Shown: positions 15,926-27,364 of the stretch, in pieces | Layout of the letters: every line of letters begins with the position of its first letter | Position numbering within the stretch: position 1 is the first letter of the stretch | NCBI GenBank assembly: GCA_004802705.1 | Contig: SGPL01000398.1 | Location: 1 to 30,935 of the forward strand | Direction of reading: 5' to 3' | Length of the DNA stretch: 30,935 bases | Source: Bondarzewia mesenterica | Taxonomy: Eukaryota; Basidiomycota; Agaricomycetes; Russulales; Bondarzewiaceae | Program-made: the position numbers and the translations under genes | The notes under the pieces: generated by a model | The model's database searches: none | Told to the model about the DNA's origin: nothing | Seen by the model: the letters and a program-made list of their open reading frames with translations, nothing else

Positions 15926-17647
15926 ATGGGCATCTGTATATCCTCCAGTGGTATAGAGCTCTCTGAGGAGGACAAGCGGCGGCATCGAGAGGCTGAGAAG
16001 ACACTTAAAGATGTTAGTCTTCACTCTATCACTTGCCCAGAACGCATATAAGCACAATCAGATTTGATTTGTAGTATCACTGGAGCTAATGCATTGTTTA
16101 ACAGGCGAAAACGAAAATGGCTTCTCAAGTGAAGGTGAGTAGCGTACAGTGCTCTAATACTCTTTTCGTGATTTCTGAGAGATCCCTGTCAGGTATTGCT
16201 ACTAGGGTCTGGTGATTCAGGGAAATCGACCATCTTGAAGGTATTTGTTTCCGACTGTAATGATATCATTATGTGCAGTATTCATCGTCGCCTTCAGCAA
16301 ATGCGTCTCATTCATCGTATACCATTCTCTCCCCAAGAAGTCGAGTCATATCGACAGCTCGTCTTTAACAACTTGACACATGGACTCAAATACCTCCTGG
16401 ATGCGATGGAAGACATGGGTTTAGAGGTTTCTGCTGAGAACGCCGAGCATATTGACAAGGTGGAGAACGCCGTCGACCTTCGTGATGGCGAGCAATTTCC
16501 AGTAAGCTATCTAGAGCCGCTTCGGGTCCTCTGGGCGGATGAGAATGTGCAAAAAGCCTGGGAGCGAGGAAATGAAGCGGCATTACCGGAGAAGTAAGTG
16601 TTTCATCAAATATTCGTTGGTGACGCCGATTCTGATGGTTCATCGCTGGGCAGTCTGTCTTACTTCTTTGCAGACCTCGATCGACTTTTCGATCTGGAGT
16701 ATACTCCAACGGAACAGGATATTGTCCGCTGCCGTGCGCGGACTATTGGTATAACTGAGACGGTCTTCCAGCTCAAGGAACATGAGATGCTCATGGTCGA
16801 CGTCGGTGGACAGAAGAGCGAGCGAAGAAAATGGATCCACTGTTTCCAGGATGTCACTAGTATATTGTTCTTGTGCAGTTTGAGTGGTTACGATCAGTGC
16901 CTAGTCGAAGACAAGGATGCGGTGAGTATCTTTCGCCTAGGCCATAGACTTTCATTAAGGGCGTTTTCCACATAGAATCAAATGCAAGACACGATGACAA
17001 TATGGGATTCTATCTGTCACTCACAATGGTTCAAATCAACATCTATAGTATGTCCTTCACTTCTTTCACTCGCAATGTGTGTTCATTTGATCGCTTCAAG
17101 ATTCTCTTCCTGAACAAGAACGATCTTTTCGAGAGCAAGGTCCTGCACTCTGATATCAAGAATTTCTTCCCGGTACGTTCGCTTCTAGCTAACTGGGCTC
17201 ATCTCGTTGACCATTATCTCTCACAGGACTTTGATGGCGAGCCAGGTGATGCACGGGCAGGCCGCGAGTACTTCAAGAAGCGTTTTGGACGACTGGCTCA
17301 AAAGGCTGGTCGCTCAAAGGAGCGCGAGATATACATCCAGTGAGTGCATTTCGGAAAGATGTGATCAATACTGACCCTCTTCGTCACAAGCATAACCACG
17401 GCAACGGATACTGCTCTACTTCGTGTGGTGATGGCAGCTGTCGAAGGTGAGTTCTCGTATTTTCTTGAGCTCTCTCATGTTCTAACGTCTTTATCTTCCA
17501 GAGTGAGTCTTTCCTTTTCATGACCCCCCTTTGAGCCCCCCCTTTCCTGGCATCCGATTTATAGCTCAACCTTTTATTTCGTGTGTCCCCTCACTTTTCT
17601 TCAGCATCGTTCTTCGTCAAAACCTTGAAGTGGCCGCATTGATCTGA
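15926..17647 (+). CDS. heterotrimeric G-protein alpha subunit with a one-nucleotide exon
   Basis: Predicted membrane-bound GTPase that couples receptors (pheromone or nutrient) to effectors. Exons: 15926-16012, 16105-16134, 16193-16240, 16298-16593, 16654-16921, 16976-17047, 17101-17172, 17227-17339, 17391-17446, 17502 alone, 17605-17647; product 361 residues. Gly2 and Cys4 (MGICIS) are the myristoylation and palmitoylation sites. G1 is GSGDSGKST (44-52; usually GxGESGKST, so Glu is replaced by Asp). Switch I is RCRARTIGIT with Arg181 and Thr184. Switch II is DVGGQKSERRKWIHCF with catalytic Gln207 present. NKND is at 272-275 and TTATDT at 331-336 (usually TCATDT). The tail is D348-IVLRQNLEVAALI, without the usual GLL-type end. 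The Asp348 codon is split G|A|C over three exons. These deviations point to one of the divergent G-alpha paralogs found in mushrooms. All other joins keep frame. Confidence 0.93.
17502..17502 (+). other. single-nucleotide exon (A) in the G-alpha gene
   Basis: The base lies between two introns that each look complete: 17447-17501 (GTGAGT donor, TTCTAAC branch-like site, CTTCCAG acceptor, 55 nt) and 17503-17604 (GTGAGT donor, TTCTTCAG acceptor, 102 nt). The preceding exon ends with one leftover G and the next begins with C. Only inclusion of this A gives GAC (Asp) followed by the family-typical IVLRQNLE tail. Skipping it gives ASFFVKTLKWPH and stop instead; keeping the second intron gives a stop at once. 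Confidence 0.75.
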
Positions 17648-18118
17648 CTGTTCCCTGTTTTTCACCTTTCCATGCTTCATTTTCATACATGCCCATGATC
17701 TTGATTATCGCATCGTGCAACTCTTCCGTGTTTGCGGTTTGGCGACGCACGTCAATTGGTCTTGTATCCCGCTCGACGTTGTCCACGTGGTTGTCACGCA
17801 TTCGGACATACTGTTCTCCTGAAACTATTCACTTGTCATCCTTTCTGATCATTAACATTATCCTTCGTACTATGTTCGCATCAACCTACAACACACGTCT
17901 CTCGAATCTCCATGTTGTGTCTATCCAATGACCGCCCGCGTTGCAATCACGCTATCAATCGAACAGCTCTATCATCAGTAAAAGCGTACGTCCATTCATG
18001 CAATGTAAACCGTCCATGATCGCTTCCTTCTATTCGTTTCACACGCATGGACAACTGGCGCTGACATGGACTGCCTGGTTTGTTTCTTAGATCCGCGAGA
18101 TCATGTTGTGATATTGAG

Positions 18119-25868: not shown

Positions 25869-27364
25869 TCAGCAAATTCCGTTGGTACTGCAAGGCTGAT
25901 CACTGGTAGCCTCGTCAATGTCTACGACCAACTTGCCATCCACCCACTTAGCCAACACCCTATGGAGCAGCAAAGAAATCAATGTACAATCAGAGGGGGG
26001 TCGTGTTTGTCCCAGAGGGCCGACCATGATGTAGGTACAGAAGTTGGAAGTGGCATAGACATGGAAGGTGGATAGAGACTCACCGTGTCAGGTCCTTGAC
26101 GATGAAATCCGGGTTCGCGCCTGACGCCTCGATCTTCTCGCGGGTGTGAGACGTGCACACGGCAAGTGTTTGTGCGCCGGCTGCGCGCCCCGCTTTCAGC
26201 CCCGAAGGTGCGTCTTCTACTACTAAGCCTGTGGGAAAATGTGAGAAGGAAAAAAGGAAGAAAAATAGAGAAAAATGCAACAGTCCAAGCTCCTCAGCGA
26301 AGTCGAGCGGGCAGAGGGGAGGGATATTGCGCCGCAACGCACGCCCCAAAATGCGATCAATGAAGGGAACAAGGTACGCACATCGAGTGGGGTCGACGCC
26401 GCATTGCTTCGCGCCGGCGAGGAAAGGATCGGGGTGCGGTTTGCCATTTTTTATGTCATTCGAGGTCACGTATCCCGCTGCTGGGATTGGGACGTTGCAG
26501 ATGGCGAGGGCTTTCGGTGTGAATACCTTCGTTGCTGTGAGCAGGGGGTTAGCAGATCTGGGTGAATACGAGGCCAAAATTAAGAAGACGAATGGCAAGG
26601 TCCGGAGATGAAGAAGACAGAAGATGCAAGGGGGAAGGGATATACATGCCGGAGGTAATGATAGTCCAACCGTAAGCCGAGGGAGAGCTTCCCGCGTTGA
26701 TCTAAGCAAAACCATTATTAAAAAAAAGTGTCATGTTCAAGAAAGGGTCTGATAGAAGACATACTACCTACCTGCTCAAGCAAGTCTAGCACACCAGGCA
26801 ACACGACTGGTCCACCCTGAATCACCTCGTTCTCAAAGTGTACAATTTCCGCCTAACAACATCGAAATGAACCAAAAGCGCCAACATCACCGGTCATGTA
26901 AGTCCCCTGTGGTCAACACGACGAAGATTCTGACTACCTCAAGCTTTTCCTGATCGTTGCCAAGTTTGCACCACTCGGCGAGAGTATCAGCGAGCCGACG
27001 TCCGTGGGTATCGTGCGCGGCGGCAGCACCGTCAAACCCGTACGCCCGCCCGAAGGCATCCCATGCGCGTAGCACACCAGGCGTCGAATCAATCAGTGTT
27101 CTGGGAGAAACGAAAGTCACCGTTGGCGTGAGCGATGACTCAGGCAGTATAGACTCGATGGAGGGTGCGATGGGGATGTGATCCGGGAATAGACATTGTT
27201 ACTGAGAATTGATATGACTGACCCATCCATATCAAAGAGAATCTGCGAAACGTTGTCGAGTGAGTTCGTCAGAGAATTCCGGTTGTCGTGCAGATATTCT
27301 GATTTGATAGCATACTGCTCGAGGAAATTGGGGTACTTACTGCGTCGACTGTGATGCTGGGCAT
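25869..27364 (-). CDS. HAD-family sugar/glycerol phosphate phosphatase (Gpp/Dog type)
   Basis: Predicted Mg-dependent phosphatase of the Gpp1/Dog1 group, which dephosphorylates glycerol-3-phosphate or 2-deoxyglucose-6-phosphate in the cytosol. Exons: 27364-27341, 27242-27223 (20 nt), 27100-26938, 26852-26772, 26701-26650, 26534-26382, 26228-26084, 25959-25869; product 242 residues, the usual size. HAD motifs: I is LFDMDGTLIDST (nucleophile Asp12, acid/base Asp14), II is TIITSAT, III is the Lys in NGKPHPDP, IV is VVEDAPSG. It ends WVDGKLVVDIDEA followed by a Cys-containing tail. Intron 26649-26535 must be GC-AG (TCCG/GCATGT). The first two exons are only 24 and 20 nt, so automatic prediction could easily miss the start. 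It converges on p23 with 256 bases between stops. Which substrate is used cannot be told. Confidence 0.9.

Follow-up and report, generated by a model that had tools for sequence, protein, structure and literature searches.

The window, which is the whole stretch of DNA analysed (30,935 nt; contig SGPL01000398.1, assembly GCA_004802705.1), carries on its plus strand a G-alpha gene of Bondarzewia mesenterica. Its joined coding sequence of 1086 nt, including the stop codon, gives a protein of 361 residues (form A), the total already proposed in the initial annotation. In this form the gene spans 1722 nt and has ten introns of 51-102 nt. The protein covers the whole PF00503 profile (1-333 of 333, 387.1 bits) and has the nucleotide-binding motifs GSGDSGKST, DVGGQ, NKND, and TATDT. 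Residue 348, read from the joined coding sequence, is Asp; the PDB matches are animal G-alpha chains, and Asp is aligned with Asp in both alignments shown. By these sequence features, namely the whole-profile match, the motifs, and the Asp of alpha-5, the gene is that of a heterotrimeric G-protein alpha subunit.

The G-alpha P-loop is usually GAGESGKST. The form GSGDSGKST (16193-16240) and the switch II stretch GGQKSERRKW do not vary among the 61 cDNA-like homologs aligned. The closest database match, among the matches listed, is the public protein EW146_g7198 (Bondarzewia mesenterica, Russulales), evidently the product of this gene. Its model has 348 residues, ends in MAAVEE, and lacks the end of alpha-5. 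The gene is the sole one of its type found in the assembly, where other matches are at most 60% identical. Its placement in the Agaricomycete G-alpha group named 'alpha subunit 4' or 'GPA2-like' in databases belongs to the best explanation given below and shares its high probability.

Another G-alpha gene occurs at L003 (G000:C370:27559-28170) and L004 (G000:C644:14036-14647), identical over the 1010 bases compared; the pair may be an assembly duplicate, two haplotypes, or a recent duplication. On the minus strand of the window, an open frame at 21310-22236 matches the WD40 repeat (PF00400, 52.5 bits), and one at 26083-26730 has weak HAD-hydrolase matches (PF13419, PF13242) barely over the cut-off. 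An Rfam search of the window at gathering scores gave no match.

Exons and the single base at 17502

The exons, together with the introns at the 3' end, are as follows, with exons 1 to 8 taken from the joined coding sequence.

15926..16012, plus strand: exon 1, ATG at 15926
16105..16134, plus strand: exon 2
16193..16240, plus strand: exon 3, with the P-loop GSGDSGKST
16298..16593, plus strand: exon 4
16654..16921, plus strand: exon 5
16976..17047, plus strand: exon 6
17101..17172, plus strand: exon 7
17227..17339, plus strand: exon 8
17391..17446, plus strand: exon 9, ending GTC GAA G, the last G being base 1 of codon 348
17447..17501, plus strand: putative intron 9, 55 nt, GTGAGTTC..TTCCAG, GTGAGT donor, CTAAC branch-like site
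17502..17502, plus strand: putative exon 10, the single base A, base 2 of Asp348
17503..17604, plus strand: putative intron 10a (tail A), 102 nt, GTGAGTCT..TTCTTCAG, GTGAGT..CAG
17605..17647, plus strand: exon 11a (tail A), base 3 of Asp348, then IVLRQNLEVAALI and the stop codon
17503..17966, plus strand: putative intron 10b (tail B), 464 nt, donor shared with 10a, far acceptor, exon 11a inside it
17967..17985, plus strand: putative exon 11b (tail B), 19 nt, base 3 of Asp348, then SIISKS
17986..18090, plus strand: putative intron 11b, 105 nt, GTACGT..TAG, CTGAC branch-like site
18091..18111, plus strand: putative exon 12b (tail B), IREIML and the stop codon

The initial annotation had read GAA G at the end of exon 9, a 55-nt intron, the A at 17502, a 102-nt intron, and C ATC GTT, with GTGAGT donors on both introns, and the letters bear out each of these statements. 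The A is flanked by complete GT-AG introns (55 and 102 nt) with YTNAY-type sites, CTAAC lying 15 nt from the end of intron 9 and CTCAC 10 nt from the end of intron 10a. Exon 11a starts C ATC GTT CTT CGT CAA AAC CTT GAA. Codon 348 is then G+A+C over three exons, which gives Asp followed by IVLRQNLE, also as claimed.

Enumeration of AG..GT microexons between 17446 and 17605 leaves the single A as the only one that keeps the frame. Among single introns, 13 combinations keep it, of which 12 bring several foreign residues and one merely adds Gly before Asp. The earlier statement that only G+A+C gives Asp is thus correct for Asp without any insertion, which the one-base exon alone achieves among the splice combinations enumerated, and too strong as worded: a weak donor (intron 17451-17604) and a GC donor (intron 17469-17604) also give Asp, the latter after seven foreign residues. 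When A 17502 is omitted, both possible ends of the protein, tails A and B, are out of frame. Also dropped was a nested (twin) intron in which the A would be spliced out, since both tails would then be out of frame.

The weak donor is the basis of a rival explanation without a one-base exon, in which a single intron starts 4 nt downstream (TGA/GTTCTC) and yields VEG-DIVLRQNLEVAALI, a protein of 362 residues. It restores the frame and keeps Asp; however, GTTCTC is a poor donor compared with GTGAGT, and the complete intron 9 and the needed A would both be a coincidence of about 3e-4. This value comes from the string YAGAGTRAGT, which has 300 occurrences in the 33,085,620-base assembly, both strands counted, or about 4.5e-6 per position. 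The 158-nt gap offers about 60 positions that leave two introns of at least 48 nt, hence the chance of about 3e-4. The control, the same string backward, occurs 535 times on both strands of the assembly. A one-base exon explains the gap between exon 9 and exon 11a best.

In the paralog control within the assembly, tail-like ends at six further G-alpha-like loci (C644, C479, C196, C93, C263, C445), located by pattern and without full gene models, cross the Asp/Glu codon unbroken. For C447, the pattern search of the assembly gave no tail. Scans of viral contigs and genome contigs for ortholog DNA bearing on the one-base exon gave no relative.

The initial annotation overlooked a second C-terminus that uses the same A. 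Tail A is DIVLRQNLEVAALI (17605-17647), and tail B is DSIISKSIREIML (17967-17985 and 18091-18111), which starts 320 nt past the first stop codon. Including Asp, the tails have 14 (A) and 13 (B) residues. Both ends lie in one gene, in frame, with GT-AG splice sites throughout, and the start of tail A and both tail B exon patterns each match once over both strands of the window, at the places listed. Exon 11b is preceded by AACAG, and YTNAY is absent from the last 70 nt of intron 10b. Because intron 10b is 464 nt long and has no YTNAY in this stretch, tail A could serve by default and tail B be regulated. Ten of the 12 residues after Asp in tail B are shared with the homolog P0010. The two tails are alike by hydrophobic pattern only, as compared by eye. 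In AlphaFold2 models, P0005 (tail A) and P0010 (tail B) both form a helix over 336-359, and pLDDT is below 50 from residue 355 onward. The low pLDDT of the model tails and the lack of YTNAY before tail B count against the best explanation given below.

Homologs and their tails

Protein searches gave 170 distinct proteins from the best 120 of 3368, 120 of 1769, and 120 of 182 matches; the third used the B tail as query and is biased to tail B. The cDNA-like set (n=75) has jgi, lgn, or ena as its only source and consists of short one-ORF contigs of 1109-3167 nt, 51 of the 75 being under 1722 nt; the term was assigned from source codes and contigs and is not a database label. The annotated set (n=95 of the 170 listed) consists of ncbi, uniref, or nr records. 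The tail patterns were widened to cover the variants seen, and the tails are of two kinds, D-IVLRxNLxxAALI (A) and D-xIISKNIRxIML (B).

Among the matches listed, Asp follows MAAVE or the like in 75/75 cDNA-like homologs, with tail A in 42 and tail B in 33, and the extra Gly occurs in 0/75, which argues against the weak donor. VED with either tail occurs in 0/95 annotated homologs listed. Both counts support the reading of a one-base exon put forward in the initial annotation. The first search alone (best 120 of 3368) gives Asp in 55/55 cDNA-like and Asp plus tail in 0/65 annotated proteins. Asp348 is invariant in the alignment of 61 of the 75 cDNA-like homologs.

The ends of the 95 annotated homologs listed comprise 29 with VEE and a stop, pieces of tail A (14) or tail B (10) after other residues, 41 others, and one cut short. 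VEE and a stop is as expected of a model that splices out intron 9 and then reads past G/A/GTRA, giving GAA GAG TRA. Among the 41 others, P0059 has Asp followed by unrelated residues. Some annotated homologs are one residue too long (e.g., VEGNIVLRR, VEGAIVLRR), as the weak donor would have it. With the poor donor and the cDNA-like proteins against it, that explanation is improbable.

Four annotated ends fit a direct join of exon 9 with exon 11a, shifted by one base: P0002 (Heterobasidion irregulare), P0119 (Daedalea quercina), P0158 (Psilocybe cubensis), and P0160 (Boletus edulis), from Russulales, Polyporales, Agaricales, and Boletales, respectively. The test is permissive because of codon degeneracy; the matches are 4 of the 21 'other' ends of at least 8 residues and include every one of the four that start with Ala. 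A further 13/95 annotated homologs listed have the right length with Gly in place of Asp, as if a transcript-guided model had taken a genomic G instead of the A. Tail A is present in 4 of them and tail B in 9, and Schizopora paradoxa (Hymenochaetales) is one of the group.

These ends bear on a second rival, an assembly error in which a base is missing at the exon end and the gap is one ordinary 158-nt intron. The sequence does come from a single assembly of the species, but the same one-base gap precedes tail B, and annotated homologs from other assemblies bear traces of it among the matches listed (the 29 of 95 with VEE and a stop, and the four compatible with a one-base shift). An error is thus very improbable, even less likely than the weak donor.

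P0093 (Flammulina filiformis), which has no contig listed, ends in VEE and a stop and counts against the best explanation; should it come from a sequenced cDNA, there is a form reading into intron 10. The model of P0079 (Lactarius tabidus) ends in VEGTIRDIML, as if splicing had passed over exon 11b and retained exon 12b, which suggests that tail B is split in the same way in Lactarius. The cDNA-like P0148 and P0170 (403-404 aa) have about 40 extra helical-domain residues that are absent from the other homologs.

Whether the tails belong to one gene or two was addressed with a quick tree of the window protein and the bodies of 55 cDNA-like homologs. The tail labels change 14 times on it against a shuffled mean of 17.0, a slight clustering (42-49 of 500 shuffles as low), and the well-supported branches alone force 5 changes. 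Mean body identity is 79.0% for A-A, 79.0% for B-B, and 78.9% for A-B. Among the homologs listed, the closest A/B pair is P0170 (A) and P0148 (B), with 96.4% identity over 390 residues; Lactarius indigo (A) and L. tabidus (B) have 96.1% over 337. The homolog database is clustered at 90%, by which most same-species pairs are hidden. No named strain among the homologs listed supplied both tails as transcripts. Armillaria solidipes has one of each tail in P0106 and P0132, with bodies 91.9% identical, perhaps a duplication with share-out of the tails.

A third rival accepts the one-base exon and places the tails mostly in different paralogs, the tail B exons of the window being little used or a decaying remnant. 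The Armillaria pair, the weak-looking acceptor before tail B, and the slight clustering on the tree favour it. Against it, tails A and B do not separate on the body tree, body identity is independent of the tail, the near-identical bodies of P0170 and P0148 have different tails, the sole gene of this type in the assembly has both, and tail B of the window keeps its frame, its GT-AG sites, and the residues shared with P0010. Separate paralogs are therefore unlikely, though the least unlikely of the three rivals.

Proposed splicing switch

The frame requirement, the Asp with both tails in the cDNA-like homologs listed, and the intermixing of tails on the body tree speak for an obligate one-base exon followed by a conserved switch, made by splicing, in the helix that couples to receptors, a reading to which a probability of about 0.86 is given on comparative grounds. 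A broader form is also likely, if somewhat less so: across Agaricomycetes, an old one-base exon would be the obligate link to two mutually exclusive tails, and one G-alpha would serve two receptor classes by splicing.

In the proposed switch, exon 9 would end one base into the conserved alpha-5 Asp codon, A 17502 would supply base 2, and the next exon would supply C. The introns flanking the A are most likely spliced out in sequence, since a single base separates them. After the A, the near acceptor (17604) would lead to tail A, and the far acceptor (17966) with one more intron to tail B. One GTPase body would thereby have two C-termini at the alpha-5 end, both in need of the same A. The C-terminus of G-alpha, the end of alpha-5, is a main determinant of receptor coupling. 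Because the tails form this end, the switch most likely sets receptor choice, so that a single G-alpha would serve two receptor sets. We infer the use of the listed splice sites in Bondarzewia mesenterica, the splicing order, and the receptor choice.

Mating and fruiting of mushroom fungi use receptor signalling. If the switch is real, a core mushroom signalling gene has a one-base exon with traces in several orders, and the gene would point to a fungal G-alpha that exchanges its receptor-coupling end through splicing. With Asp plus tail in none of the 95 annotated homologs listed, studies using such models may lack or distort the alpha-5 end.

Comparison with known systems

The one-base exon of cox1 is not a case of the nuclear spliceosome, because the gene is mitochondrial. 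It is described in Placozoa (PMC5436844, as far as the available text goes). In open-licence PMC papers, a range that leaves out most subscription papers and all of bioRxiv, neither a one-base exon in any G-alpha gene nor an alternatively spliced fungal G-alpha tail was found. The earlier claim that no one-base exon is known in a fungal G-alpha agrees with this, and the fungal case elsewhere is CYP621A of Fusarium. For Flammulina filiformis, four G-alpha genes are reported, and the words 'alternative' and 'C-termin' are absent from the main text of that paper (PMC9030616).

The published single-nucleotide exon of Arabidopsis APC11 (PMC4674806, available part) likewise consists of one A, with AG before it and GT after it, which the frame requires and which annotation overlooked. 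Unlike that of the window gene, it was proved with cDNA and constructs and is reported as constitutive, and rice paralogs are without an intron (PMC4674806). The evidence here is comparative, and two tails follow the A.

The CYP621A exon of Fusarium is called the second one-base exon, and the first in a fungal gene, by its authors (PMC12940212, February 2026; available part). It too is in a fungal nuclear gene, with the base in a conserved-motif codon and a gap from phase 1 to phase 2; it is common to orthologs, and gene models of it are wrong. It differs in that the base is a G, the gene belongs to one P450 subfamily in a single ascomycete genus, 18 reads prove the exon, and the text available gives no alternative ends (PMC12940212). 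In the gene of the window the base is an A, the protein is a basidiomycete signalling protein, and traces of the exon extend over several orders. A tie between a one-base exon and alternative splicing, if true, would be unreported for APC11 and CYP621A in the accessible parts of these papers.

As to the two ends, human GNAO1 is the closest likeness, being one G-alpha gene with alternatively spliced last exons and two C-termini, GoA and GoB (PMC7599900, available part). It differs in using a duplicated pair of longer last exons (PMC7599900), whereas the gene of the window would place tails of 14 and 13 residues behind a one-base exon, with tail B split into 19 and 21 nt.
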